Assembly (NCBI GenBank): GCA_903926465.1 | Contig: CAIYJE010000026.1 | Coordinates: forward strand, 1-34,940 | Direction: 5' to 3' | Source of the DNA: an uncultured Planctomycetales bacterium | GTDB lineage: Bacteria; Planctomycetota; Planctomycetia; Isosphaerales; Isosphaeraceae | DNA length: 34,940 nt | Part shown: positions 2,395 through 34,854 of the stretch, one piece after another | Numbering within the stretch: position 1 is the first letter of the stretch | How the letters are laid out: each line of letters begins with the position of its first letter | Translations under genes and position numbers: made by a program | Notes under the pieces: generated by a model | The model's database searches: none | What the model was told of the DNA's origin: nothing | Seen by the model: only the letters and a program-made list of their open reading frames with translations

Positions 2395-3297
2395 TCAGCC
2401 GGCCGCGTTCACCAGTTGGCCGATGGTTTTTTCCAGGAGCGGCGTGCCGCCGAACACCATGCCCAGCCTCTGGATTTTTCCGGTGGCAATCTGGTGCTTG
2501 GGTTGTGGGGTTTGGCCCTGAACTACGGCGCTTGACCCTGAAAGTTTCTGGGCGATCTGAGCCACTTCAAGATCTGAGACATAGCGATCTGTGCAATTGA
2601 ACGCATGGCCCGTGATCTGAATGGCCGGTGCATTGAGCAGCAAGGCCACAGCGCGGGCCACATCATCCACATGCACTTCCTTGCCGCCTCGCGTGCAAGA
2701 GACCGCCTGGCCTGCCAACACCTGTTTGACTAGCTCAAACCATTTGCTGTGCTCGGCCGGTTGAGCCAAACCGTAGATTCCCGTAGGCCGCAAGGCGCAA
2801 ACCGGGAAGCCGGAGCCTAGCCCGAAGCTGCTCACAAACGCCTCAATGGCGGCCTTGTGTGCGCCATAGTGGCTGGTGCTCCAAAGCGGGTGCGTTTCAT
2901 CAAGCGGCCGATCGTCAAGAATTCGCTCGTGGACCGCGCAGGTGGAGATGAAAATGAATCGTTTAACGCCGGCTTTGCGAGCTTCTTCAATCAGGTTGAT
3001 CGAGCCCACCACGTTCGTTTCCACGAAGTCGATCAGGTTACCTTCAGCGCCCCGGAAACCGGGGCCCGTGCGATCGAGCGCAGCATGCACCACGGCATCA
3101 CAGCCTGAAACGAACTCCGTATGCAACTGCCGGTTTCTGAGGTCCCCTTCCACCCATTCCAGTTCTTGATGCTGGGGCAGAGAGCTACCAATCCGGCCCG
3201 GCCGAAACCAGGCTCGAACCTGGTCTCCGCGGCTGAGCAAGCTGGCAACCACGGCTCGGCCTACAAAACCGGTCGCTCCCGTAACGGCAACTTTCAT
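2395..3297 (-). CDS. NAD-dependent epimerase/dehydratase (extended SDR)
   Basis: This is a 300-residue extended short-chain dehydrogenase. The Rossmann motif GATGFVG is at residues 7-13, the acidic turn GDL at 51-53, a Ser/Thr pair at 118-119 and the active-site Tyr144-X3-Lys148 (YGAHK). Such enzymes act on nucleotide sugars or on small carbonyl substrates in the cytoplasm using NAD(P). At 300 residues, and with a substrate half that lacks obvious UDP-galactose epimerase signatures, the substrate is open. The start is an ATG at 3297 at the beginning of the first beta strand (MKVAVTGATG). Its upstream region contains an intergenic repeat (3426-3520) and the terminator of the FKBP gene, so it probably has its own promoter in about 3300-3550. 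Confidence 0.85.
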   Translation of the reverse strand: MKVAVTGATGFVGRAVVASLLSRGDQVRAWFRPGRIGSSLPQHQELEWVEGDLRNRQLHTEFVSGCDAVVHAALDRTGPGFRGAEGNLIDFVETNVVGSINLIEEARKAGVKRFIFISTCAVHERILDDRPLDETHPLWSTSHYGAHKAAIEAFVSSFGLGSGFPVCALRPTGIYGLAQPAEHSKWFELVKQVLAGQAVSCTRGGKEVHVDDVARAVALLLNAPAIQITGHAFNCTDRYVSDLEVAQIAQKLSGSSAVVQGQTPQPKHQIATGKIQRLGMVFGGTPLLEKTIGQLVNAAG

Positions 3298-3425
3298 GGT
3301 CGGTGTGCTCCACTTGGCGAGGGGTTTCTCAAAGAATGATCGCTGTCTACCATTCCGTGCGGTTTACGATTGGGTTGCACATGGGGGGAGGGCTGCCCTC
3401 GGCGATCTCTTGGGGTCGTTTTGTG

Positions 3426-3520
3426 TGCAATCGATTCGTGAACCGCTAGAGGGGCAATTTCAAAACCTGAGACAGGCAACTCGCGGACTTTGAGCCAGCC
3501 CCGGTTTTGTAACGGCTTCT
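3426..3520 (+). repeat. 95-bp intergenic repeat, copy 1
   Basis: This is one of two related elements in the window; the other is at 12444-12538. The 64-bp core (3457-3520) matches the core of copy 2 at 53 of 64 positions with no gap by hand alignment. It forms an imperfect hairpin: TTTCAAAACC (3458-3467) pairs with GGTTTTGTAA (3503-3512) with one mismatch. The first 21 bp (3426-3446) is the reverse complement of the first 21 bp of copy 2 with one difference. It lies between the FKBP terminator and the start of the epimerase gene and encodes nothing recognisable. Palindromic extragenic elements of this kind are known in many bacteria; I do not know a name for this one. Confidence 0.75.
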
Positions 3521-3554: not shown

Positions 3555-3606
3555 TCCTAAAAAAGAACCGAGCCCGGGCCAACACAGATGCGTTGACCGG
3601 GCTCGG
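3555..3606 (-). terminator. Rho-independent terminator of the FKBP gene
   Basis: CCGAGCCCGG (3568-3577) and CCGGGCTCGG (3597-3606) form a perfect 10-bp GC-rich stem. Read on the minus strand the stem is followed by TTCTTTTTTAGG, a good U-tract. It lies 22 bases after the FKBP stop codon. The loop contains a second short pairing (CAAC with GTTG). Confidence 0.85.
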
Positions 3607-3628: not shown

Positions 3629-4390
3629 TCACTTGGCGTCTGGTTTTTCGATGTCCAGCAGTTCGATCTCGAAGACGAGCGTTGAGTTGGGTGGGATCAC
3701 CGGTGGGCTTCCGCCTTCGCCGTAGGCCAGCTCAGACGGGATAACCAGCCGGGCCTTGCCGCCGACCTTCATCTGCTGAACGCCATCGGTCCAACCCGCG
3801 ATGACCCGGTTGAGTGGGAACGAGATTGGCTCATTCCGCTTGTAAGAGCTATCAAACTCGGTGCCGTCGATCAGGGTCCCCTTGTAGTGGACCTTCACGG
3901 TGTCTGTTTCTTTGGGGTTGGCGCCAGTGCCTTCCTTGAGAGTTTCTACGTGAACCCCCTTGGCGGTCACTTTTACGCCTGGCTTCTTCTTGTTATCAGC
4001 CAGGAAGGTTGCCCCTTTTTTGAGGCTTTCTTCGCCGGCGGCCTTCATTTTGGCCTGCTGCTGGGCGATGAGCGCGGTCTTGAACTCTTCCATCACGGAT
4101 TCGAGTTCCGCATCGGTCAAGCGGCTCTTACCACCTGAAAGTCCGTCTTTGACGCCTTGAACCAGTTCGTTCACGTCGACGTCGATCTCTTGTTCCTTGA
4201 AGTTCTTGGCGAAGGCCAGGCCAATTCCGTAGCTGGCATCCTTTTTGAGATCGGCAGGGGAACGGGCAGGGGCGGTGGCCTTGACCTTGGCGGTGGCGGC
4301 GGCACCCTTTTCTTGCTGGGCAGAGAGGAAGGCGGGACCGGCGATCAGCAGGGCCGAGCCCCCGATCGCGGCGAGCATGGCGGACTTCAT
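3629..4390 (-). CDS. Exported FKBP-type peptidyl-prolyl cis-trans isomerase
   Basis: The 253-residue protein has a signal peptide (about residues 1-24, hydrophobic core AAIGGSALLIAGPAFL, likely cleaved after LSA), a helical FKBP N-terminal dimerisation domain (about 45-130) and a C-terminal FKBP domain (about 155-248). The latter shows VHYKGTLIDGTEFDSSY, GWTDGVQQMKVGG and ELAYGEGG, the strands and loops that form the prolyl isomerase pocket. The layout is that of Mip/FkpA proteins, which help fold secreted and outer membrane proteins in the periplasm. The start at 4390 is chosen because AAGGAG stands seven bases before it and because it opens directly into the signal peptide; a longer frame to 4450 has neither. 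A strong terminator follows at 3555-3606. It is divergent to the sulfatase gene. Confidence 0.93.
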   Translation of the reverse strand: MKSAMLAAIGGSALLIAGPAFLSAQQEKGAAATAKVKATAPARSPADLKKDASYGIGLAFAKNFKEQEIDVDVNELVQGVKDGLSGGKSRLTDAELESVMEEFKTALIAQQQAKMKAAGEESLKKGATFLADNKKKPGVKVTAKGVHVETLKEGTGANPKETDTVKVHYKGTLIDGTEFDSSYKRNEPISFPLNRVIAGWTDGVQQMKVGGKARLVIPSELAYGEGGSPPVIPPNSTLVFEIELLDIEKPDAK

Positions 4391-4603
4391 CGAAACTCCT
4401 TGTGGGGGTCGGCGGACCTTGGGTAGGTACCGAGTACAAACTCCTGGCAAACTGAATCTTTGAGCATAACGGACAAAACGGCCTGAACCTAGACCAAGTC
4501 GATATCAATGCGTGGTTACCGGCCTTGTCTACAGAAGGCCCAGGTGAGCAAAATCAAGTGAATCCAGGATGGAATTCCTGCGCTTTTAGTTGCGAGGCGT
4601 GCG

Positions 4604-12443: not shown

Positions 12444-12538
12444 GCGGTTCACGAATCGGTTGCACTGAGAGGCGATTTCAAAACCTGGGACGGGCACCTT
12501 GCAGGCCCGGAGCCAGTCCCGGTTTTGAAACGGCTTCT
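12444..12538 (+). repeat. 95-bp intergenic repeat, copy 2
   Basis: This is the partner of the element at 3426-3520. Its core is a better hairpin than copy 1: 12476-12491 pairs with 12516-12530 over 15 base pairs with one bulged T, and the loop holds a further GGGC/GCCC pairing. The first 21 bp (12444-12464) is inverted relative to copy 1, with the same 10-bp spacer to the core. It sits between two convergent genes (12356 and 12620). Confidence 0.75.
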
Positions 12539-12555
12539 GAGAAACAACCCCAAGA

Positions 12556-12575
12556 GACAGCCGGCGGCGGCTGTC
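12556..12575 (-). terminator. Hairpin downstream of the SMP-30 gene, possible terminator
   Basis: GACAGCCG (12556-12563) and CGGCTGTC (12568-12575) form an 8-bp perfect stem with a 4-base loop. On the minus strand it is followed by TCTTGGGGTTGTTTC, which is a weak U-tract, so termination is plausible but unproven. It lies 45 bases after the stop of the SMP-30 gene. Confidence 0.4.
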
Positions 12576-12619
12576 CCACCCGTGCAACCTAATCGTGAAT
12601 CGCGAATCTCGCTTCTAGA

Positions 12620-13684
12620 TTACTTTCCTTTGGTGGTCAGCTTCACCCGGCCCAGGAACATGTCGGCCGTGATGTAAAGGGTCGAGCCATCGTCGCCCCA
12701 GCCGCAGTTGGCCGTTGCCTCGCCGGTGGCAAAGGTGCCCAGGTGGGTGCCATCGGGGGCAAACACCAGCACGCCGCCAGGTCCGGTGGCAAACAGGTTG
12801 CCCGCGGTATCAACCTTCAGGCCGTCGGGGAGCCCTTTCTTGCCAGGCTGGTCTACCCACTTGGTCACATCGGCAAATACCCGGCCAGGGCCCACGGTCC
12901 CGTCTGCGTTCAGCGGGAACGCCATCCAGATCGCCTTTTCAGGGTCGGAGTTGGCCACGTACAGGGTCTTTTCGTCGGGCGAAAGGGCAATCCCGTTCGG
13001 CCGGCTCATCTCTTTGGTCAGCAGAGAGAGCTTGCCATCTTTGGAGATTCGGTAAACGCCCTGGAAGTTCAGTTCCCGGGCTGGGTCTTCAATTCCCTTC
13101 ACCAGGCCGTACGGTGGGTCTGTGAAGTAGAAGTTGCCGGCCGAGTCAAACACGCCGTCGTTTGGGCTGTTGAAGCGTTTGCCTTCAAACCGATCGGCCA
13201 GGGTCACGAATTCATCTTTGCCGTTCTGGCGGTTCAGGCGTGCCACACGCCGGTCGCCGTGCTGCATCAGCACCAGGTCGCCACTGGCTGATCTTGCCAG
13301 GCCGTTTGAGCCAGGCTCGCCCGTGCGTGAGGTGGCTCCGGTGTAGCCGCTGGGCTTGAGCCAGGGCTTGGCTCCAAAGGTGCCTGGCTTCCACTGGTAA
13401 ACCGTGTTCAGCGGGACGTCTGAGAAGAGCAGGGAGCCGCCGTCGAGGTTGGGCATCCAAACCGGGCCTTCTGCCCAGTCAAACCCCATGGCAAGCTTTT
13501 CAACCTTGGCGTTATTGGGGACCAGGGCATCGAACCGGGGGTCGAGCCGCTCGATGGTGCCGAGCGCCTCGTAGGTGGTCGCCGGCCGGGGCGGAGCAAT
13601 GTCCTGGGCTGGGCTAGAGATCGCTCGGCCCGCAATCAAAAGGAACGCCCAGGCGCACAGGGGACGTGAGATGTGTAGGATCAT
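12620..13684 (-). CDS. Secreted SMP-30/gluconolactonase/LRE family protein
   Basis: This 354-residue protein has a signal peptide (about 1-27, core AWAFLLIAGRAISS) and a six-bladed beta-propeller of the SMP-30/luciferin-regenerating enzyme type. The metal-site signatures are visible in order: AEGPVW (the first Glu ligand), FNSPND with the structural Asn, RPNGIAL, and LPDGLKVD with the catalytic Asp. Characterised relatives hydrolyse sugar lactones; planctomycetes carry many exported versions of unknown substrate. ATG 13684 has GAGG about 10 bases upstream. Its downstream region holds a hairpin and repeat copy 2, and it converges on the small repeat protein gene. Confidence 0.9.
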   Translation of the reverse strand: MILHISRPLCAWAFLLIAGRAISSPAQDIAPPRPATTYEALGTIERLDPRFDALVPNNAKVEKLAMGFDWAEGPVWMPNLDGGSLLFSDVPLNTVYQWKPGTFGAKPWLKPSGYTGATSRTGEPGSNGLARSASGDLVLMQHGDRRVARLNRQNGKDEFVTLADRFEGKRFNSPNDGVFDSAGNFYFTDPPYGLVKGIEDPARELNFQGVYRISKDGKLSLLTKEMSRPNGIALSPDEKTLYVANSDPEKAIWMAFPLNADGTVGPGRVFADVTKWVDQPGKKGLPDGLKVDTAGNLFATGPGGVLVFAPDGTHLGTFATGEATANCGWGDDGSTLYITADMFLGRVKLTTKGK

Positions 13685-14857: not shown

Positions 14858-16585
14858 ATGGGGGCAGATTTGTTGACGCAGGCCAGCCGTCGAAAATGGG
14901 TTTCGAATGGCTTCCAGGCCAGGCGAAAGTGGAGCCTGCGACGGTGTGGTGGGTTACTGGTGGCTGGCGCGGGGCTGATAAGTCCTCTGGCGGCATTTGG
15001 CCAGGCCCCTGGAGAGTCGGCTGAGGTTCCATTGTCATCGGGACGAGTCATCAGCACGAGCGATTTCGAGGAACGGTTCAGGCGGCTGGAAGCCTTGTTA
15101 AACAAACAAGCTGAGCAAATTGGCAAGCAGTCTGAGCAAATCGATAAGCTCACAGGGGAAAACCAGAAACTGGTCGAGCAGGTTCGCGACCTCTCGGCCG
15201 GTGCCGTTCATCCAGATTCGAATTCACCGTTAGAATCGGTCATTCTTCCGTTGACGGATGCGTCGATCGGCGAAAATTCGGGTCTGTTCGGGCCACCGCC
15301 CACTTCTGGAGGACCTGGTTCTGCGCGTACTGCGCTGGATTCGCCCCGTTTCTCAGGAGCAGAGCCGGATCCATCCATCATGAACCGGCCGTATCTGACC
15401 GGTTTGTATGACAATGGGTTTGTCCTGGTCGCGCCCGTTGATAAACAAAAGACGCCGTTTGCGCTCAAGCTGAATATCTCAACACAGATGCGTTACACCG
15501 GCTTTTACAGATCGGTGGATCACTGGACCGATAGCGCGGGGAATGTGTGGCCGGTGTTTAACCGAGGCTACTTCGCGCTCAACCGAAACAGCTTCAGCTT
15601 CAGTGGGTTCGCGTTCTCGCCCAACTTCCAGTACAACGTCTCGGTTTTCAGCACGTCGGCGACCAATCAGACGATCGCCATGGGGGCCCTGAAGTATGTA
15701 TTCGACCCTGGTCTGGCGTTAAATGCGGGCTATTACAAGGTGCCCGGCACGCGTGAGTGGATGGAACCGCTGCAGCAGATGGGTGTAGACCGGACGATGT
15801 CCAACACCTTCTTCCGGCCGAACGTCAGTCCAGGCGTGTGGCTGAGTGGAGAACCCCTGGAGGGGCTTCACTACCTGGCTGGAATCTTCAATGACTACAA
15901 CTCATTGGCCAGCAATGCGTTTCGCACAAACACGAACATGACGTACGCGGCGAACGCCTGGTGGGAGCCACTGGGTGAATTTGGCCCTGGTTACGCGGAT
16001 GCCACAGATCATGAGAATCTGGTCATGCGAACTGGGTCGAGCGTGGTCTTCTCTCGCGCCCGACCTTCGCCCAACCCGAACCCATTTGAAACCAACCCGG
16101 AAAATACGGTCCTGAGGCTCTCGGACGGTACACCGGTCTATTTGCCGAACGCCCTTGGGCCGGGAATCAACGTGAACGCGACCGACGTTCTGCTGTACTC
16201 CTATGATCTTGCGTTCAAGTATCGGGGTTTCAGCCTGAGCGGCGAATACTATGCACGCTGGCTGTTCGATCTGGGAACCTCCAAGGGAGCGATTCCCGCT
16301 GCCTATACGACCATTTTTGATACCGGAGGGCTGGCTCAGGTTTCGGCTTCACTGGTGCCCAGGCATCTGGATGTTTTTGCCAGAACATCGGGAGTTTTTG
16401 GGGCATTTGGAGAAGGCACTGAGTACGGTGGCGGCCTGAACTGGTACATTCGCGGCAACCAGCGATTGCGCGCGACGGCCGAGGCCAAGCGAATCAATCA
16501 CTCATCCGCGAGTAATGTTCTATCCGGTTACTTCGCCGGCCAGACTGGCACCTTGCTCCAGTTACAGCTCCAGACTGATTTTTGA
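14858..16585 (+). CDS. OprO/OprP-like porin with N-terminal coiled coil (paralogue 1)
   Basis: A 575-residue outer membrane protein. A long basic n-region (RRKWSLRRCGG) and the hydrophobic core LLVAGAGLISPLAAFG form a signal peptide, cut near residue 48. A heptad coiled coil follows (about residues 67-112, repeats of KQAEQIGKQSEQIDKL), then a linker rich in Pro/Gly/Ser, then a beta barrel from about residue 185 onward with LKLNISTQMRYTGF and RNSFSFSGFAFSPNFQYNV, typical of phosphate-selective porin O/P. The chain ends LLQLQLQTDF, a C-terminal beta signal with terminal Phe as recognised by BamA. It probably lets anions or small solutes through, and the coiled coil may trimerise or span to the cell wall. 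ATG 14858 has only AGG in front. A close paralogue follows directly. Confidence 0.85.
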   Translation: MGADLLTQASRRKWVSNGFQARRKWSLRRCGGLLVAGAGLISPLAAFGQAPGESAEVPLSSGRVISTSDFEERFRRLEALLNKQAEQIGKQSEQIDKLTGENQKLVEQVRDLSAGAVHPDSNSPLESVILPLTDASIGENSGLFGPPPTSGGPGSARTALDSPRFSGAEPDPSIMNRPYLTGLYDNGFVLVAPVDKQKTPFALKLNISTQMRYTGFYRSVDHWTDSAGNVWPVFNRGYFALNRNSFSFSGFAFSPNFQYNVSVFSTSATNQTIAMGALKYVFDPGLALNAGYYKVPGTREWMEPLQQMGVDRTMSNTFFRPNVSPGVWLSGEPLEGLHYLAGIFNDYNSLASNAFRTNTNMTYAANAWWEPLGEFGPGYADATDHENLVMRTGSSVVFSRARPSPNPNPFETNPENTVLRLSDGTPVYLPNALGPGINVNATDVLLYSYDLAFKYRGFSLSGEYYARWLFDLGTSKGAIPAAYTTIFDTGGLAQVSASLVPRHLDVFARTSGVFGAFGEGTEYGGGLNWYIRGNQRLRATAEAKRINHSSASNVLSGYFAGQTGTLLQLQLQTDF

Positions 16586-16637
16586 CGTGTGAGTATGGCC
16601 CTCACCGCGCCTGAGGCCTGAATCAGCGTCTGCTTTG

Positions 16638-16656
16638 CCTGAAAAACTATTTCAGG
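16638..16656 (+). promoter_or_regulatory. Hairpin between the porin genes
   Basis: CCTGAAA (16638-16644) and TTTCAGG (16650-16656) form a 7-bp stem with a 5-base loop, 53 bases after the first porin's stop. No T-tract follows. It may be a processing or weak attenuation site between the two porin genes. Confidence 0.3.
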
Positions 16657-16864
16657 TGGAATAACCGGTCGATAAAGAACATTATGCATCGTTTCCGAAG
16701 AATGCTGGTGCACACGCCCTTTTACGGGATGGCATCCAGGTTCTGTGTGTTGTGGGCAGGCCGTTGAGCCAACCTGCCGGCCCCGCAGATGCCGAAGACA
16801 ACTCAAGGCTTCATGACGAGTGGAGAGGACAGGGTCCGGTTGATGTACGTGCATTTTCTACTTC

Positions 16865-18472
16865 TTGGACTGGTACTGCTTGGCCCCAGGCGGGTCATGG
16901 GAGGCGCCGGCTGATTCCGCAGAGGCGTCACCGGGCTCGAACTCCGCCAGTTCGAACGAAGTCGAAGATCGCTTCCAGCACCTGGAAACGCTGTTGAGCA
17001 AGCAAGCGGAACAGATTGACAAGCTTTCCAGCGAGAACCAGAAGCTGGTTGAGCAAGTACGCGAGCTTTCCACCGGAGCCGCCAATCCAGAGGTTCAGCA
17101 CTTGCCAGGTGCGGTCTCGCCTCCGTTGCCAGATCCGTCTTTGGTAGAGCCTCAGAGCCTGTTCACCTCCCAGGGGATGGGTTCGGTACCCAGCAACTCG
17201 CCGGTCATGGGTTCGGCCTTGCAGGAAGCAGGCAACTATGCGGCTCCTGCCGCTCATCACGCCAGCGCAGATCGTACGTTTCTGGCGGGCCTTTATAACG
17301 ATGGGTTTGTGCTGGTTGCGCCCAGTGATAAGCAGAAAACGCCGTTCGCACTCAAGCTCAACATCTCGACACAAGTTCGTTACACTGGTTTTTACAAGTC
17401 GGCGGATAGCTGGACCGATAGTGCTGGTCACGTGTGGCCGATAATCAATCGCAGTTATTTCGCGCTCAATCGCAACTTCTTCAGCTTCAGTGGTTTCGCG
17501 TTCTCTCCCAATTTGCTCTACAACGTGACGGTTTTCAGCACCTCAACAACGAATCAGACGATTGCCATTGGAGCCCTGAGCTATGTCCTGGACAAAGGCC
17601 TGTCGCTGAATGCGGGCTACTACAAGGTGCCCGGTACGCGTGAGTGGTTAGAGCCAATTCGCCAGCTCGGCGCAGACCGAACGATGGCAAACACCTTCTT
17701 TCGTCCCTCGGTGAGTCCTGGATTCTGGCTGAGTGGAGAGCCTCTGGAACGTCTTCACTACATCATGGGCATTTACAACGACGTGAATTCCATGTCCAGC
17801 AACGCCTTCCGTGGCAATACCAACATGACCTACGCGGGAAATGTCTGGTGGGAACCGTTGGGAGAGTTCGGCGTCGGTTATGGCGATGCCGTCTATCATG
17901 AAAATCTGGTGATGCGAACGGGGTCGAGCCTCGTGTTTTCGCGCTCGCGCTTGGAAGCGAATCCTAACCCCTATCAGACCAACCCGGAAAATACGGTGCT
18001 GATGCTGTCGAACGGCACGCCACTTTATGAACCCGGAGCGCTCGGCAAAGGAATTAGTGTCAACGCAACCAACCTGCTGCTGTATTCCTACGACCTTGCC
18101 TTCAAGTACCGTGGTTTCAGTCTCAGTGGTGAGTACTATGCACGCTGGTTTTTTGATCTAGGCACCGCCAGTGGTGCGGTTCCCTCTGCCAATCAGACAA
18201 TATTCGATAACGGTGGGCTGGCCCAGATTTCCGCTCCGATCGTGCCCAGGCATCTGGAATTGTTTGCCAGATCCTCAGGCGTGTTTGGTCAGTTCGGAAA
18301 CGGTACCGAATACGGCGGCGGCCTGAACTGGTTCATTGGCGGTAACCCACGCGTGCGAGCGACGGCTGAAGCCAAGCGGATCAATCATTCACCGGCGAAT
18401 AACGTTCTTTACGGTTACTTCGCCGGCCAAAGTGGAACCTTGCTCCAGTTGCAATTACAGACCGAGTTCTGA
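16865..18472 (+). CDS. OprO/OprP-like porin (paralogue 2), signal peptide out of frame
   Basis: The 535-codon frame from TTG 16865 encodes the same architecture as the preceding gene: coiled coil (VEDRFQHLETLLSKQAEQ onward), linker, and a barrel highly similar to paralogue 1 throughout, ending LLQLQLQTEF with the terminal Phe. It has no signal peptide of its own. Frame +1 just upstream, from ATG 16813 (AAGG four bases before) gives MTSGEDRVRLMYVHFLLLGL and VLLGP, an ideal signal peptide, then stops at 16914. Removing one C from the CCCC at about 16883-16886 would join the two into one protein starting at 16813. So this is either an assembly/sequencing error, a recent frameshift, or a recoded gene. 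The rest of the frame is intact. Confidence 0.8.
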   Translation: MDWYCLAPGGSWEAPADSAEASPGSNSASSNEVEDRFQHLETLLSKQAEQIDKLSSENQKLVEQVRELSTGAANPEVQHLPGAVSPPLPDPSLVEPQSLFTSQGMGSVPSNSPVMGSALQEAGNYAAPAAHHASADRTFLAGLYNDGFVLVAPSDKQKTPFALKLNISTQVRYTGFYKSADSWTDSAGHVWPIINRSYFALNRNFFSFSGFAFSPNLLYNVTVFSTSTTNQTIAIGALSYVLDKGLSLNAGYYKVPGTREWLEPIRQLGADRTMANTFFRPSVSPGFWLSGEPLERLHYIMGIYNDVNSMSSNAFRGNTNMTYAGNVWWEPLGEFGVGYGDAVYHENLVMRTGSSLVFSRSRLEANPNPYQTNPENTVLMLSNGTPLYEPGALGKGISVNATNLLLYSYDLAFKYRGFSLSGEYYARWFFDLGTASGAVPSANQTIFDNGGLAQISAPIVPRHLELFARSSGVFGQFGNGTEYGGGLNWFIGGNPRVRATAEAKRINHSPANNVLYGYFAGQSGTLLQLQLQTEF

Positions 18473-26622: not shown

Positions 26623-28566
26623 TTACTCACGTGCCAACGCTGAACGCAGGCTATTCCAGATTCGGTCGCTGGCACGCTCGGCGCCGGCCTGGCTCAGATG
26701 ATCATCGTCGTAGTAAAGAACCGTTTTTCCATCGAGAATCCATGCCTGATCTGCTGGTCTCTCAAAGAGATCATAGACAGCAATCCTCCGACAAAACGGA
26801 TATTGCTCGCACAGTGAGCGAACGATTTGCCGTCCCTGCTCATGCTTATTTGTTTTGAGAGCCGGTAAGTACCTGCGTTCATCCGTCTTCGGCCAAAAAC
26901 GAAGATAAGATAAGTACTGCGCCGCGTTACGGTCACCAAAGTACAAGACTGGCGGTTGTTCAATCAGGAGCACCTGGGCCCCAGTTCGGCCGCAGAGTTC
27001 GACCAGGTCTTTGGTGTCCTCCGTGTGATATTTCTCCCAGCGTGCGACGATGATCACAACTTTCGGTCTCCATTCCTCCAGAAAGTTTACGCGTTGCTGG
27101 TCATAAACCAAGAGTTGGTCTTGAGTGAAGTTTCCTGGCGGCCGGTTTGAAAGAGCCAGTGGAAACCGTAAAAACGGACTGGTAGAAACGGTTGCGTAAA
27201 AACTGGTGGTCTGGCCGAGTTCTCTGGTAATGCTATCGATGAGCCCCGACCACATCAGGGCATGTGAGTCTCCCAGTACCACAACGGTTGGTTCCTCTGG
27301 CCCGTTGCGGTGGATAATGCCGCCCGCGGTGTAAGTTGCTGAGAGCTGATTCGTCTTGGTGGTCGCCGGGTTAACATCATAATGCTTGCCCAGAAACACC
27401 ACACGATTGTACCTGGAAACATCGTAACTGTTTTGGCGCAATGCGAGATATGCAGATGCTCCAAGGGAAGGAACGAGCAACGCCAGGCAGATGTAAAGCG
27501 CGGGTTGAGAGGGCAACCGGTACCGGACAGTTGCTTCCACGTACCGATAAGAGGCCAGGGCGAAAAGCAGCGTTAACACCAGTACTAACAACAGGTGGGA
27601 TGGCAGCCGGATACTTAGCCCGCACTGGGTGCCCAGGGCGATCACTGGCCAGTGCCAGAGGTAGAGTGAATACGAGAGTTTGCCAACAAATATGGTTGGC
27701 GGGAGAGCCAGGAACCGCCGGACGAGCGCTTGCCTGGCCTGCGTAAACCCAAGAATCAAGAGACAGCCAGAGACCGGAACGACCAGATAACCCGGGAATC
27801 TGTGGCTGGCGGAAAAGTAAAAAAAAGAGCCGGCTACAAGCACCATGCCCATTAAAGCCAGTGCCGTTGCGTGTCGATGTTCTATGACCCTTCGTGGTTC
27901 CGCCATGCAAACCGCCAGTAAACAGCCTGCGGTAAGTTCCCAGGCGCGCGCGGGTAATAGGTAGAAGGTGGTCAGATCCTGGGAACTGGCCCCCTGGAGG
28001 TAAAGCATGAAAGAACCCACCATCGCGAGCGTTAGCACGAACTTGGTGAATCTTCCCGCGTATCGGATGAGGAGTAGGAGCAGGGGCGGATAAATCAGGT
28101 AGAACTGTTCTTCGACAGAAAGTGACCAGCTATGAAGGAACGGAGTTTCCTGAGCGATCCGCGACCAGTAGCCAAGGTTCTGATGACACAGAACGAAATT
28201 CGCAACCGAGAGGGCCGCCGCAGCCCCCTGAACGCCGTAGCTCACGGTATCGGGCTTGAAGCAAGAGACGGCACTGACCACCGAGGTGATCAACAGCATG
28301 GTCAAGAGCGCGGGCAAGATCCGGCGAATTCGCCGACTCCAGAAGCGCATCAACGAGAATTCGCCCAGTTTGATTTCCCTGGTAATGATTGAGGTGATCA
28401 GATAACCAGAGATGACAAAAAAGACATCGACCCCAAGATAGCCGGCCGGAATGCAGGTCAATTCCAGATGGTAAAGGATGACGGCAAGCACGGCCACGGC
28501 ACGCAGGCCGTCGATTTCAGGACGATACGCGATCGATGATGTACTGCGATGGATGGTCTGAACCAT
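26623..28566 (-). CDS. OafA-type acyltransferase with C-terminal SGNH domain (copy 1)
   Basis: 647 residues, third and last gene of the minus-strand operon. The N-terminal acyltransferase-3 domain opens with YRPEIDGLRA (14-23), has about ten membrane helices, and shows FFVISGYLIT, RRIRRILPA and the catalytic-side HSWSLSVEEQFYL. The soluble C-terminal half is an SGNH hydrolase-like domain with GDSH near residue 432 and DDDH near residue 622, giving the Ser and the Asp/His of the triad. Such fusions (OafA, PatA/OatA-like) move acetyl groups across the membrane and place them on lipopolysaccharide, peptidoglycan or exopolysaccharide sugars. Start ATG 28566 is three bases after the upstream stop. 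Confidence 0.92.
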   Translation of the reverse strand: MVQTIHRSTSSIAYRPEIDGLRAVAVLAVILYHLELTCIPAGYLGVDVFFVISGYLITSIITREIKLGEFSLMRFWSRRIRRILPALLTMLLITSVVSAVSCFKPDTVSYGVQGAAAALSVANFVLCHQNLGYWSRIAQETPFLHSWSLSVEEQFYLIYPPLLLLLIRYAGRFTKFVLTLAMVGSFMLYLQGASSQDLTTFYLLPARAWELTAGCLLAVCMAEPRRVIEHRHATALALMGMVLVAGSFFYFSASHRFPGYLVVPVSGCLLILGFTQARQALVRRFLALPPTIFVGKLSYSLYLWHWPVIALGTQCGLSIRLPSHLLLVLVLTLLFALASYRYVEATVRYRLPSQPALYICLALLVPSLGASAYLALRQNSYDVSRYNRVVFLGKHYDVNPATTKTNQLSATYTAGGIIHRNGPEEPTVVVLGDSHALMWSGLIDSITRELGQTTSFYATVSTSPFLRFPLALSNRPPGNFTQDQLLVYDQQRVNFLEEWRPKVVIIVARWEKYHTEDTKDLVELCGRTGAQVLLIEQPPVLYFGDRNAAQYLSYLRFWPKTDERRYLPALKTNKHEQGRQIVRSLCEQYPFCRRIAVYDLFERPADQAWILDGKTVLYYDDDHLSQAGAERASDRIWNSLRSALARE

Positions 28567-28569
28567 TGG

Positions 28570-30558
28570 TCAGTCTTCCGATAACGCAGAACGCAAGCCA
28601 TCCCAGATTCGATCGCTGGCACGTTCAGCACCGGCCTGGCTGAGGTGATCGTCGTCATGGTAGAGCAGGGATTTTCCGTCGAGAACCCACGCCTGACCTT
28701 CTGGTCCGTCAAAGAGATCTTTGATGTCAATCATCCGACAAAACGGATATTCCTTGCACAGCGAACGGACGATTTGTAAGCCCTGTTCGTACCGGTTGGA
28801 TGGGAGCGTGGGGAAGTATCGACGTTCATCACGCCGAGGCCAAAAATGAAGATAAGAGAGGTACTGGCCTGCTTTACGGTCACCAAACGATAAAACGGGA
28901 GGCTGTTCGATCAGTACCACCTTCGCGCCAACTTTTCCGCAGAACTCAACCAGGTTCCTGGTCTTCTCCAGCGTGGTGTGTTCCCAGCGGGTAACCAGCA
29001 CAACAACCTTCGGTTTCCAGAGTCCGAGGAACTCCAGCCGCTTCTGGTCGTATTCCAAGCGTTGCTCGGGTGTGAATCCCTTGTCCGTGCGCTTGGGTTT
29101 AGAGAGTGGTAGTGTGAAGAACGGACTGATGGAATCTGCGGCGTAGAATGACGTGGTAATTCCCAGGTTTTCTGTGATGCGATCAATGACATTGGACCAC
29201 ATCAGGGCATGAGAATCTCCGAGCACAACAACCTTCGGTACATCTCCACCGTGGTGGTGAATGATTCCACCCGTGGCATAGGCGTTGATAAGTGCATCCT
29301 TCTGCGAGGGTGTTTTCGTCTTGCTTTTCTTGTAGGTCAGGGCAAGGTGTCCCGGATTGACCTTGTACTCATCTCCTTTCCAGGCCTGTTGATACATGGA
29401 GGTGTCATACAGGTTGGAGCGAAGGTAGAGGTAGGCCGATGCGCCCAGGCTTGCCATCAGCAGGCCCAGACAAACACAGAGGGCCGCTGTCGGTTTCAGG
29501 CCGAACCGTACAGGCGATTCCACGAATTGATAGGAACTGAATGCCAGGCCAAGGATGAATGCAACGGTGATCCATCGGTCCAGCAAGGCGGTTTCTTGAA
29601 GCCCAAACTGGTCCCCCAGCACGATCACCGGCCAGTGCCAGAGGTAAAGTGAGTAAGATCGTTTGCCCAGAAATACCAGGGGTGGAAGCGCGAGTGCCCT
29701 TCTGGCGAGAGACTTGGGTGCTTGTGCGTAGCGGATGACCAGGGCTGAGCCGAGCACGGGAATCGCCAGATATCTTCGGAAGCTGTCCTGGCCAGTGAAT
29801 GTGAAGAGCGAAGCCAGTATGAGACTCAGGCCCAAAAGAGCCAGGATGTTCTGACCCCTTCCCGCCACGCTCGAAGCGCGGATTGCTGGAGCCAGGGCTA
29901 GCAAACAACCCGTGGCAAGTTCCCAGGCACGCGCTGGCAGCAGGTAGAAAGTGGCCGTATCCGCGGCTGCATTTTTCTGGATGGTAAGCAAGTACGAGGC
30001 GGCAATGACCAGGATCAGTACGATTGCGGCGCATCGTTTTCCGAAACGAAGCGCGGTGATCAGGATGAGTGGGTAGAAGAGATAAAACTGTTCTTCGACA
30101 GAGAGTGACCAGGTGTGCAGAAAGGGCGTTTTCTGGGCGGTGGTCGACCAGTAATCCAGATTTTGATTCCACAATGCGAGATTGGCGGCAGAGAGTGCGG
30201 CTGCGGCTCCTTGCGTGCCGTAATAGATGGTATCCGGCTTGAAGGTCCAGAATATGCTGACGATCGAGGTGATCAGCAACATGGTCAGAAGCGCGGGCAA
30301 GATCCGGCGAAATCTGCGGCTCCAGAATCTTGGGAGAGAAAAGGTGCCCTGCTCGAATTCGTGAACAATGATCGAACTGATCAGAAAACCGGAGATGACA
30401 AAAAAGACATCAACTCCAAGATAGCCGCCAGGAATCCACGAGACGCCCATGTGGAAGAGGATGACTGGGACGATGGCAAGGGCTCGCAAGCCATCAATCT
30501 CTGGGCGGTAGGGGATAGCAGTTATGGGATTCAGGGCGGAAGGATCAGGCATATTCAT
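28570..30558 (-). CDS. OafA-type acyltransferase with C-terminal SGNH domain (copy 2)
   Basis: 662 residues with the same layout as its neighbours: YRPEIDGLRA near residue 17, GVDVFFVISGFLIS, RRFRRILPALL, HTWSLSVEEQFYL, then GDSH near residue 447 and DDDH near residue 635. Its ATG (30558) overlaps the stop of the upstream gene as ATGA, so the two are probably translationally coupled. The stretch between the membrane part and GDSH carries an insert rich in Lys and Thr (about residues 405-430, near YKKSKTKTPSQ) that the other copies lack, which may tune substrate choice. Confidence 0.92.
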   Translation of the reverse strand: MNMPDPSALNPITAIPYRPEIDGLRALAIVPVILFHMGVSWIPGGYLGVDVFFVISGFLISSIIVHEFEQGTFSLPRFWSRRFRRILPALLTMLLITSIVSIFWTFKPDTIYYGTQGAAAALSAANLALWNQNLDYWSTTAQKTPFLHTWSLSVEEQFYLFYPLILITALRFGKRCAAIVLILVIAASYLLTIQKNAAADTATFYLLPARAWELATGCLLALAPAIRASSVAGRGQNILALLGLSLILASLFTFTGQDSFRRYLAIPVLGSALVIRYAQAPKSLARRALALPPLVFLGKRSYSLYLWHWPVIVLGDQFGLQETALLDRWITVAFILGLAFSSYQFVESPVRFGLKPTAALCVCLGLLMASLGASAYLYLRSNLYDTSMYQQAWKGDEYKVNPGHLALTYKKSKTKTPSQKDALINAYATGGIIHHHGGDVPKVVVLGDSHALMWSNVIDRITENLGITTSFYAADSISPFFTLPLSKPKRTDKGFTPEQRLEYDQKRLEFLGLWKPKVVVLVTRWEHTTLEKTRNLVEFCGKVGAKVVLIEQPPVLSFGDRKAGQYLSYLHFWPRRDERRYFPTLPSNRYEQGLQIVRSLCKEYPFCRMIDIKDLFDGPEGQAWVLDGKSLLYHDDDHLSQAGAERASDRIWDGLRSALSED

Positions 30559-32501
30559 TCCTCTGTCATCGCTGATTGGAGTGCCGTCCGAATTCGATCT
30601 CCAGCCTCTTCCGCGCCCGCCTGGCTGAGATGGTCATCGTCAAGGTAAAGCAGTTTGTTACCGTTCAGTACCCAGACCTGATGACCGGGTGCCTCAAATA
30701 GATCGGCGATCGGTATCAACCGGCAGAATGGATACCGCTGACACAGGTCCCGGACGACGGCGCGGCCTCGATCATAGTCCTTCCAATTCAGAGCCCGAAT
30801 AGATTGGCGCTGGTTCTCTTTGGGCCACAAGTGCAGGTAAGCAAGGTACTGGGCAGTCTTTCGGTCTCCAAAAAAGAGCATGGGAGGTTGTTCGATTAGC
30901 AACACCTTGGACCCAACCCGTCCACAGGCCTCAATCAGATCTTTTGCCTGCGCAACGGTGTATCGTTCCCAGCGGGCAACCAGCACAACCGCCTTAGGTC
31001 TCCAGTTTTCCAGGAATTCTAAACGTTTTTGGTCGTAAATTAGAAGTTGGTCGGGCGTGAATCGGTTGGTCATTCGAGTGGAGCGAGTTAGCGGAAGCGT
31101 AAGGAATGGATTGGTTCCTCCGGCCGCGTAAAACGAAACAGAGACACCCTGTTGTTTTGCGAACTGGTCGATCAGGCTGGACCACATTGCGGCGTGAGAG
31201 TCGCCAAGTACTATGATTTCCGGGGTGGAAGTCCCATATAGCTTCAGAATGCCACCGGTTTCGAAAGAGTTGAGAGTCAGTTTTGGGTTGGAGGTGGTTT
31301 CGGGCTTCACATCATAACCCCGTCCTTTGTATTCAACCTTGAACATGTTATCGACATATCCGGTAGACCTGAAGTTAAGATAGGCACTCACTGCAAGAGT
31401 GGCTATCAAAAGCGTCAGACACACCCGCAGTGCTGCCGATTCCTTTATTTGATAACGAACCGGTGTTTCGACGTATTGATAGGACGCCAAAGCCATGAAA
31501 AGCATGAGCACAACGGTAAATAATTGATCGATCGGAAGATTTTCGTCGAGCCCAAGTATTCTTCCCAGAACGATCACCGGCCAGTGCCAGAGGTAGAGCG
31601 AGTAAGAGAGTGTGCCGGTGAGGACGAGCGGCCTGCATGAGAGAAGCGTGCCAACGAACGAATGCGTGTTGTTCGCCATCGCGATCACGAGGGCGGATCC
31701 AAGTACCGGCATGGCCACGGAACCTGCGAAGTTGGATTCCTCTCCCACCAGAATGAACGAAGCGACCACGATAGCCAATCCCAGGCATGCTAGAAGTTCG
31801 CTAACGATGCGCCCCATTACCGGTTTCTGGTTCCCGGTGAGTACAGCCAGAATACAGCCTGTGGCAAGTTCCCAGGCCCGAGTGGGTAGGAGGTAGAATG
31901 TCGCTGAGATCATGCTTTCCTGGTGGCGTCCGAAAATGAGCAGTCGCGGAACCAACACGGAAAGTAGGAATGAGATGATCCAAAGCAGGCCCAGGACAAG
32001 GACTGTCCGTCTTTTCCCACGTTGGAGCAGTGGGATCAGGATCAGCGGATAAATTAAGTAATACTGCTCTTCCACGGAGAGCGACCAGGTATGCAGGAAT
32101 GGCGTCATTTGTGCCGTGGCCGACCAGTAATCTTTAACTTGAACCCAGAGCGCGACGTTGGCAAGGGAGAGCGCGGCCGCACTGCCTTGTAGTCCATAAT
32201 TCGTGGTGTCCGGCCTGAAACAGAACACCGCACTCACCAGCGAGGTGATCAGAATCATGGTCAAGAGTGCCGGCAAGATCCGGCGCACTCGCCGACTCCA
32301 GAATCTTGGAAGTGAAAAGGTTCCTTGCTCAAAATCTTTGACGATGATCGAGGTGATCAGAAATCCGGAAATCACAAAAAAGACATCAACGCCCAGAAAG
32401 CCACCTGGAATCCATGAGAAGTTCATGTGGAAAAGAATCACCGGCACAATGGCAACCGCCCGTAGTCCATCAAGTTCGGGTCGATATTTGAGACTGGCCA
32501 T
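30555..32501 (-). CDS. OafA-type acyltransferase with C-terminal SGNH domain (copy 3)
   Basis: 648 residues, first gene of the minus-strand operon. Features: YRPELDGLRA at residues 6-15, GVDVFFVISGFLIT, RRVRRILPALL, HTWSLSVEEQYYL, GDSH near residue 434 and DDDH near 620. In the N-terminal third it is closest to copy 2 (shared FEQGTFSLPRFWSRR). A short insert after the seventh helix region (around PRLLIFGRHQESM) is its own. Promoter must lie in 32502-32916, shared with the divergent copy 4. Confidence 0.92.
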   Translation of the reverse strand: MASLKYRPELDGLRAVAIVPVILFHMNFSWIPGGFLGVDVFFVISGFLITSIIVKDFEQGTFSLPRFWSRRVRRILPALLTMILITSLVSAVFCFRPDTTNYGLQGSAAALSLANVALWVQVKDYWSATAQMTPFLHTWSLSVEEQYYLIYPLILIPLLQRGKRRTVLVLGLLWIISFLLSVLVPRLLIFGRHQESMISATFYLLPTRAWELATGCILAVLTGNQKPVMGRIVSELLACLGLAIVVASFILVGEESNFAGSVAMPVLGSALVIAMANNTHSFVGTLLSCRPLVLTGTLSYSLYLWHWPVIVLGRILGLDENLPIDQLFTVVLMLFMALASYQYVETPVRYQIKESAALRVCLTLLIATLAVSAYLNFRSTGYVDNMFKVEYKGRGYDVKPETTSNPKLTLNSFETGGILKLYGTSTPEIIVLGDSHAAMWSSLIDQFAKQQGVSVSFYAAGGTNPFLTLPLTRSTRMTNRFTPDQLLIYDQKRLEFLENWRPKAVVLVARWERYTVAQAKDLIEACGRVGSKVLLIEQPPMLFFGDRKTAQYLAYLHLWPKENQRQSIRALNWKDYDRGRAVVRDLCQRYPFCRLIPIADLFEAPGHQVWVLNGNKLLYLDDDHLSQAGAEEAGDRIRTALQSAMTEE

Positions 32502-32916
32502 ACGAAGTGATTTCTGATTGCCTGTGGGAACGGCATATTCGTAGGTTCACCAACTGGACAGCCCAATCCTATCGCTGGGCCTGCATGACATCTGTCTCTA
32601 AAATACAGGATCAGCGTGCTAACTTCGATTCGAATTTGATCGCCAACCCCACGCGTTCTATCTGACAGTGAGAATTCCGCAATCCGCAATCCTTGCTATG
32701 GACGGGATTGCCTTGGATGAATGGGTGGCTATGGTGGTTGGATCTTACACCGATCATTCGTTCTGGGGTATTGGGATAGTATCTCCTGGAAATTTTTGGA
32801 GTATGCCAGTAATTTAAGGATTGCTGCTCCGCGAATGGAATTACTAGACCTGTTGCTCAAGACCCGCAATTGGTCTGATCTACGCACCAGAAACCTGGAT
32901 TTTAAAAAGCAACGTT
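32502..32916. other. Divergent intergenic region between acyltransferase genes
   Basis: 415 bases separating the starts of the minus-strand operon (32501) and the plus-strand copy 4 (32917). It is richer in A and T than the flanking genes, as expected for a double promoter region, and contains a short direct repeat CGCAATC CGCAATC (about 32679-32692). I see no convincing sigma70 pair, RNA gene or conserved ORF. A 67-codon frame at 32721-32924 overlaps the next start but has no support. Confidence 0.4.
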
Positions 32917-34854
32917 ATGAGTGACTGGAAGTATCGCCCCGATATTGATGGCCTGAGAGCGGTGGCAGTGGTACTCGTCTTACTTTTTCATGGAAAGCTT
33001 GGTTTTCAAGGTGGATTTGTAGGGGTTGATGTTTTTTTTGTGATCTCGGGGTTTGTGATCACGGGTCTGTTCCTCAAAGAACATCATGCCCGGGAATTTT
33101 GTCTGTATGACTTCTGGTTGCGCCGGGTTCGGCGAATTTTGCCAGCCTGTGCGGTGATGGTGGTTGCAAGTCTGACGGTTGGCTATTTTATCCTTTTCCC
33201 AGACGATTATCAGGAACTGGCACTTTCCGCGATCGCGGTTCAAACCCTTTCTGCTAACCATTTTTTTCTCAAGAATACCGGTTATTTTTCAGGCAATGGG
33301 GAGCTCAAGCCGTTACTACATACCTGGTCGCTTGCGGTTGAAGAGCAGTTCTATCTGGTTTACCCTCTGGTACTGATGTTGCTGGGTCGGCTCTCCAGGC
33401 GAATCATGGTTGCCGTGCTGGTCATTCTGGCGTTGGGTTCGTTGATTTTTAGTGAATGGCTTCTGCGGGGACAGCCTGCTTCTTCGTTTTACCTCATGCC
33501 TGCTCGGGCCTGGGAATTGCTGCTGGGCGGCCTGGTTTGCCTTGTCTCCCCGCAGGGCAGGCTTCATCATTGGTTGGCGAATTTGCTGGGCGTTGCTGGC
33601 CTTGCTGGAATATTGGTCTCGGCCTGGTTATTTGATGCGAACACGATCTTCCCAGGCATTTCGGCGGCTTTGCCCTGTGTATCGGCCGCCCTGGTGCTGT
33701 ATGCAAATTCACAAAACTCGACCTGGAGCGGCAAACTGCTATCCTTCAAGCCCATCGTTTTCGTGGGCCTGATATCCTACTCGCTGTACCTGTGGCACTG
33801 GCCGATTCTCAGCTTTGCCCGCTATTTGAACGGCGGTCGGAAACTTGAAACTAGTTCGGTGTTTTACGGACTGGCTGCCAGTTTGGTTATGGCGTCACTT
33901 TCCTGGAAATACCTGGAAACTCCCTTCAGAACCGGCAGATATCTTGCCAGCCCACGCCGTTTGCTCTTGGTGTCGGCCGTGTCTGTACTGGCGATTGTGG
34001 CTAGTTCAAAGGCGATCCTTTTTCGATATGGGCTTCCAGATCGTTTTGATGCCCGGTCTCAAGCCTATGCGGCCGCGATTCGCAGTAAGGTTCATGCACA
34101 CAGCCTGTCGCTGCAAGATCTAACCGCAGGCCGAGTTCCCACATTTGGATCTGAGACCGGCAAACTTCAATGCTTGATTTGGGGAGACAGTCATGCCATG
34201 TCGCTTGTGGCTGGACTGGACTTGGCGTGCAAGACGTATGACATCAAGGGCTTCCAGGTCACCCATTCGGGTCGGCCACCGATTCTTGATTTTATACCGA
34301 GGAAGTCCGAGTTTCTGAATCGGGAAGCGCAAGAGTTCAATCGGGCGGCACTCCAGTTTGCCATCAAGAAGCGAGTGGATTTTGTGGTACTTGGAGGGCT
34401 ATGGTCAAGTTCTGTAACCACCCCCAGATTCGAAGAGTGTTTTCAATCGACTGTTAATCAACTTATCGAGGCTGGTATTCGAGTGGCGATCGTTCGAGAT
34501 GTTGCTGTTTTCAAGGCTCCTGTTCCGCTTCAGCTTGCCACGGCAGTCATGACAAAACGTAATCCAGAACAAATCGGAATCTCGAAGCGGATTTACGGTG
34601 TTGTAAACAATAAGGCAAATGAGTTCTTTGATCCGCTGGCGACGGATCGGGTCACGATCCTTGATCCCGCGCACCGTTTGGTCGATGAGAAGGGGCTCTG
34701 GCGTGCCGAGTATGCTGGCGTTTCTATGTATCGTGATCACTCACACCTGTCGAAAGAGGGAAGTCTGCGCCTCGAGCCAATCTTCGCAAGGTGGTTTGAT
34801 TTGGGTGTAACTACCGGTCCCGCTTTATCCGGTTTTCCCAAGTCTCCCATATAG
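32917..34854 (+). CDS. OafA-type acyltransferase with C-terminal SGNH domain (copy 4, diverged)
   Basis: 645 residues with the same two-part layout but clearly more distant than copies 1-3: YRPDIDGLRA (5-14), GVDVFFVISGFVIT, RRVRRILPACA, HTWSLAVEEQFYL, GDSH near residue 423 and RDHSHLS near residue 606 in place of DDDHLS. Asp and His of the triad are still present with the right DxxH spacing. It is transcribed away from the other three. The likely role is again O-acylation of a surface glycan. Its 3' end overlaps the minus-strand frame at the window edge by 30 bases. ATG 32917 is the only start in phase with the first helix. Confidence 0.92.
   Translation: MSDWKYRPDIDGLRAVAVVLVLLFHGKLGFQGGFVGVDVFFVISGFVITGLFLKEHHAREFCLYDFWLRRVRRILPACAVMVVASLTVGYFILFPDDYQELALSAIAVQTLSANHFFLKNTGYFSGNGELKPLLHTWSLAVEEQFYLVYPLVLMLLGRLSRRIMVAVLVILALGSLIFSEWLLRGQPASSFYLMPARAWELLLGGLVCLVSPQGRLHHWLANLLGVAGLAGILVSAWLFDANTIFPGISAALPCVSAALVLYANSQNSTWSGKLLSFKPIVFVGLISYSLYLWHWPILSFARYLNGGRKLETSSVFYGLAASLVMASLSWKYLETPFRTGRYLASPRRLLLVSAVSVLAIVASSKAILFRYGLPDRFDARSQAYAAAIRSKVHAHSLSLQDLTAGRVPTFGSETGKLQCLIWGDSHAMSLVAGLDLACKTYDIKGFQVTHSGRPPILDFIPRKSEFLNREAQEFNRAALQFAIKKRVDFVVLGGLWSSSVTTPRFEECFQSTVNQLIEAGIRVAIVRDVAVFKAPVPLQLATAVMTKRNPEQIGISKRIYGVVNNKANEFFDPLATDRVTILDPAHRLVDEKGLWRAEYAGVSMYRDHSHLSKEGSLRLEPIFARWFDLGVTTGPALSGFPKSPI

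Follow-up and report, generated by a model that had tools for sequence, protein, structure and literature searches.

Nested and abutting miniature inverted-repeat elements as the probable source of an apparently flipped repeat module in an Isosphaeraceae-type planctomycete genome

IS1031-like IS5 elements are one example of the PHIS/IS5 kind of transposon that uses C|TNA|G targets. Such targets have been described in the PHIS/IS5 superfamily, of which the eukaryotic NuwaII is another example (PMC4482050), and GTAG-tagged REPs associated with RAYT have been reported in Planctomycetes (PMC3733652). A further point of comparison is provided by the bacterial MITEs of the IS630/Tc1-mariner type, such as Correia/NEMIS, RUP, the ERIC-like elements and Nezha. 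Here we compare with these systems a pair of repeats from an uncultured Planctomycetales bacterium. The window, by which we mean the whole stretch of 34,940 nucleotides that was analysed, contains at 3426-3520 what a sequence-only reading had described as a 95-bp repeat, with a 21-bp module that appeared to have been flipped in place beside a 64-bp core. It now seems very likely that this feature is the place where two unrelated miniature inverted-repeat elements meet, F1 and F2, nested in one copy (B) and abutting in the other (A), which are dispersed in this Isosphaeraceae-type planctomycete genome and which would have been mobilised in trans.

The comparisons on which that reading was founded are sound. 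The cores at 3457-3520 and 12475-12538 agree directly at 53 of 64 positions, exactly as had been claimed, and the module at 3426-3446 matches the reverse complement of 12444-12464 at 20 of 21, as against at most 8 of 21 in direct or shifted registers. A repeat search of the window recovers the same blocks, as the direct family D8 (75 nt, 81%) and the inverted pair I8 (22 nt, 95%), together with a third block that had been overlooked: 3383-3421 matches 12542-12580 in inverted orientation (I6). Moreover, both of the compared 21-mers are single arms of pairs, their partner arms being at 3359-3380 in copy A and at 12582-12603 in copy B. The 21-mer appears to be flipped because F2 bears it inverted at its two ends; the right arm in copy A had been compared with the left arm in copy B, and no inversion is needed. 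The module thus belongs to a different element from the core, one that always bears both orientations, and the two arms of F2 account for the difference in orientation that had been ascribed to recombinase action at this site. The observed levels of agreement do not show an inversion, and the arrangement is mostly an ordinary one.

The palindromic element F2 is abundant in the 6.9-Mb genome. With up to three mismatches, its 21-mer arm, GCGGTTCACGATTGGGTTGC, has 92 forward and 82 reverse matches among those listed (174 altogether), and the reversed control has 0 of either. Pairing the forward with the reverse arm matches in the retrieved loci gives two sizes, of about 88 bp (the mode is exactly 88) and about 208 bp. 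In both the short and the long form the arm is inverted at the two ends, and every full copy has it in both orientations. The terminal inverted repeats, GCGGTTCACGATTGGGTTGCAC, are 22 bp long; they enclose a single hairpin, GACAGCC...GGCTGTC, in the short form and an inverted pair of GTAGGACAGCCGCCCTCGGCTGTC in the long form, where the internal hairpin is preceded by GTAG. The insertion sites are TA/TATA, with TATA on both sides of most of the 208-bp copies. At one locus (L066) a long F2 lies within the right arm of a short one, and this arm returns to its usual 22 nt on the assumption of a TA duplication of which one copy has mutated to GA. An IS630 transposase locus of the same genome (L215) has a boundary of the same form as F2, TATA|GC...GC|TATA.

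F2 resembles the IS630/Tc1-mariner-type bacterial MITEs in being short (88 or 208 bp) and non-coding, in its 22-bp terminal inverted repeats and TA/TATA context, and in its many dispersed intergenic copies and strong hairpin, the comparison being one of features. With respect to the GTAG REPs associated with RAYT, it shares the GTAG tag on an internal hairpin, and it is this GTAG-type hairpin, doubled as an inverted pair in the long form, that sets it apart from the MITEs, along with a parent transposase that was not found. From these traits we infer that F2 is a non-autonomous MITE of the IS630/Tc1-mariner type, whose TA duplication is suggested mainly by the one nested case and by the consistent TATA flanks.

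The second element, F1, is smaller still. The core probe finds it in at least 42 places in the genome, most of them without F2, and its central 34-mer has 41 genome matches among those listed, compared with 0 for the control; like the 21-mer, it recurs far more often than chance would allow. In an alignment of 36 two-ended copies (about 34 distinct loci, a few rows being the same palindromic copy read on both strands), the element measures 68-70 bp, nearly always exactly 69, and runs from GAAGCCGTTTCAAAACC to GGTTTTGAAATTGCCTC with TNA flanks on both sides. Its terminal inverted repeats, GARGCNRTTTCAAAACC, begin with G. The two flanking 3-mers are equal in 18 of the 36 copies (in 10,000 shuffles 8.2 on average and never more than 17), and their middle bases in 26 of 36 (mean 14.6 and maximum 25, again for 10,000 shuffles). 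F1 bodies of the same sequence are found with TAA/TAA and with TTA/TTA, and the 3-mer therefore derives from the target and not from the element. The outer bases of CTNAG, C at -4 in 18/36 and G at +4 in 21/36, vary independently; the duplication is therefore TNA within a preferred CTNAG. A 5-bp duplication of CTNAG is not favoured, given this independence of the outer bases and the conservation of the inner G and C. Our first idea, a Y1-type insertion beside a fixed CTTAG, which occurs at both ends of F1, was discarded, the middle base being copy-specific and the outer C and G variable.

F1 is thus short, non-coding, dispersed and bounded by terminal inverted repeats and a target-site duplication. 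It is like the C|TNA|G-targeting members of the PHIS/IS5 superfamily, for example NuwaII (PMC4482050), in its 3-bp TNA duplication in CTNAG and its inverted ends starting from G, and differs from them in having only 69 bp and no coding capacity; no IS5-like transposase with matching ends was found. On the evidence of its ends and target, F1 is probably a non-autonomous MITE of the IS5/PHIS type. In addition, an arm segment of F1, AATTTCAAAACCTGGGACA, occurs in about five tandem repeats beside an F1 copy at C156:2494-2851 (L014, L015), suggesting replication slippage at the hairpin.

In the window, the repeat proposed at 3426-3520 is real, but its boundaries are not those of either element: copy A consists of an F2 at 3359-3446 and an F1 at 3449-3519. 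This F2 is intact and palindromic, with the modal length of the short form (88 bp) and a loop that is inverted with respect to copy B; its left terminal inverted repeat is at 3359-3380 (plus strand, 1 mismatch to GCGGTTCACGATTGGGTTGC) and its right one, which contains the supposed module and belongs to the inverted pair I8, at 3425-3446 (minus strand). The F1 that abuts the right end of this F2 lies on the minus strand and has 71 bp, with an apparent 2-bp insertion of GG near one end; by position, a diverged copy of the central 34-bp palindrome occupies 3469-3502 (minus strand). Its duplication is imperfect on the left, where the flank is CTA, common to the end of F2, as against TTA on the right. 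Copy B, at 12444-12603, has 160 bp, the sum of an 88-bp F2, a 69-bp F1 and a 3-bp duplication. The F2 terminal inverted repeats are at 12444-12465 (plus strand; the other copy of the module) and 12582-12603 (minus strand; 12584-12603 has 2 mismatches), and the internal hairpin, GACAGCC...GGCTGTC, is at 12556-12575. F1 occupies 12469-12537 on the minus strand (L156), with the terminal repeats GAGGCGATTTCAAAACC / GGTTTTGAAACGGCTTC, and is flanked by TGA at both 12466-12468 and 12538-12540, within a CTGAG target.

Removal of this F1 and of one TGA (72 bp) from copy B leaves exactly 88 bp and an uninterrupted CTGAG target. The same operation on L003, where TAA is duplicated, reduces 160 bp to 88 bp, and in a third nested case, L030, it leaves 90 bp, not 88. 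The empty sites meant here are F2 itself and not an orthologous uninterrupted locus; of the latter none was found, a search of the named genomes with the flanking epimerase giving only distant orthologues (the best with 63% identity). The junctions also take other forms: in L067 a long F2 abuts an F1 end at its TA, and at C178:9789 the nesting is the opposite, F2 being within F1. Copy B would then be the result of an F1 having jumped into an F2, and in copy A the two elements would abut at a TA/TNA targeted by both. The enzymes that mobilised them in trans would be DDE transposases, of an IS5/PHIS-like kind for F1 and an IS630/Tc1-mariner-like kind for F2, now either gone or unassembled. The 4 PF13358 and 12 PF01609 loci of the 207-contig assembly included no autonomous element ending like F1 or F2, a weak absence that concerns these two transposase families.

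Other explanations of the junction can be measured against these data. The mobile, modular character that had been proposed for the repeat holds in spirit, inasmuch as both blocks are dispersed and transposon-like, but the blocks are two separate elements, and the linkage of the 21-mer to the core, which had been set beforehand as a test, fails: most copies of the 21-mer lie apart from the core. One could nevertheless imagine a composite F2+F1 element that moves as a unit and whose module order can be rearranged. An F2 arm does lie within 60 bp of about 7 of the 34 F1 copies, a density of 2.21 arms per kb compared with 0.138 per kb at 200-1400 bp (about 16-fold), although this is an upper estimate, some of the near pairs having been retrieved through F2. 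A common preference of both elements for intergenic TA-containing targets is sufficient to account for the enrichment. Most F1 copies have no F2 nearby and most F2 copies no F1, and the junctions differ from each other (inside at different points, abutting or with the nesting reversed), all of which makes a single composite element very improbable. To the idea that the 21-bp segment beside the core is turned round in situ by a site-specific recombinase we give even less credence. It has in its favour the identity of 20/21 inverted versus 3/21 in the direct register, but both orientations of the 21-mer already occur in every complete F2, and what adjoins the core is the right arm in A and the left arm in B. 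Furthermore, each copy also has the second arm and the loop, with the loop inverted too (I6), and there is no pair of recombination sites around the 21-mer; the copies do not differ only by an in-place change of orientation.

The presence of RAYT genes raises the alternative that a RAYT (a Y1 HUH transposase) mobilises F1 as a REP/REPIN, with F2 as a bystander. The sequence-only reading had advised looking for such a gene; the genome has 5 PF01797 matches, one of them with the core's central hairpin upstream. This best RAYT, at C129:519-1172, encodes 218 aa (PF01797; 82.8 bits to NF047646 REP_Tyr_transpos, with a cut-off of 80) and is preceded by two copies of the hairpin, and its G028 orthologue has similar hairpins downstream. 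In the 45 family genomes, the clade of this RAYT (E <= 1e-20) is found in 13 of the 14 with the 34-mer versus 15 of the 31 without it (Fisher P = 0.0067), an association that is suggestive only, the genomes not being independent. F1 shares with the RAYT-associated REPs/REPINs (PMC3733652) a palindromic central hairpin that is also found beside a RAYT gene. It differs from them in its target duplications and terminal repeats, and by inspection its copies carry no GTAG/GTGG tag at the hairpin. Because F1 is bounded by copy-specific 3-bp TNA duplications, as well as by conserved ends, its insertion is not of the Y1 kind. In addition, the hairpins by the RAYT gene have CAAAATG arms in place of CAAAACC and are without the F1 ends, and a hairpin is near only 2 of the 30 RAYT loci examined, none being found at the other 28. 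Mobilisation of F1 by a RAYT is, in our judgement, unlikely, if less so than either of the preceding schemes. Three other Y1_Tnp genes (L090, L092 and L093, on C25, C169 and C177) are each bordered by distinct direct or inverted repeats of their own and may represent separate RAYT/REP systems; the one on C169 has a 208-bp F2 immediately upstream.

What is still puzzling is the central palindrome of F1. With 0-3 mismatches, this 34-mer, GGGACTGGCTCCGAGTCYKCGAGGTGCCTGTCCC, is found in 14 of 45 family genomes and has 0 control matches. It is nearly unchanged in several related genera, whereas the adjoining stems differ between genera and copies and yet stay complementary: for 46 arm types the stem extends beyond the 34-mer by a mean of 7.6 bp, compared with 3.7 bp when the right arms are shuffled (the maximum of 500 shuffles being 5.0). 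In genome G014, where 139 matches of the 34-mer core are among those listed, it forms the centre of a different and longer repeat (e.g. L345, L361 and L341-L375) with the ends GAGTCTGTCCC / GGGACAGACTC and CTNAG-type flanks (TCA on both sides in L345, TAA/TCA in L361). Many of the G014 copies run on into a second, related hairpin. We would only tentatively propose, and with more doubt than confidence, that across the family the 34-mer is an independent hairpin, selfish or functional, present in different short elements and tied to the RAYT clade, in such a way that one module would be common to RAYT hairpins and DDE-mobilised MITEs. MITEs may have taken the hairpin over from a RAYT, or it may be a structure that selection or arm-to-arm template switching has preserved.

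Nothing is unusual about the genes next to the two copies, which encode an NAD-dependent epimerase (2395-3297), an FKBP-type isomerase (3629-4450) and an SMP-30/gluconolactonase-like protein (12620-13684). A 24-nt match (83%), CAACACAGATGCGTTGACCGGGCT, links 3580-3603, inside a hairpin resembling a terminator downstream of the FKBP gene, with 15480-15503. Elsewhere in the window, two adjacent plus-strand genes at 14858-18472, the first without a Pfam match, share 300-bp stretches that are 75-79% identical at a spacing of 1887 bp, and at 26623-34854 three acyltransferase-3/SGNH paralogues follow one another in tandem on the minus strand, while a fourth gene like them lies alongside in the opposite orientation, on the plus strand (D1-D3, I1-I5).

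No Rfam family matches the window, and the literature, which was covered in part and thus gives weak evidence of novelty, yielded no description of F1 or F2; a full-text search for the core sequence brought up only papers on other subjects. F1 and F2 would be two apparently undescribed element families for the Isosphaeraceae-type planctomycetes, and what had looked like a DNA inversion becomes an ordinary case of nested miniature transposons. Since nested copies keep the empty site, one element can be dated against the other. Finally, the 34-bp hairpin with its covarying arms offers a test case for how structured DNA repeats may change sequence while keeping their pairing, and for whether RAYTs and DDE transposases may exploit the same hairpin.
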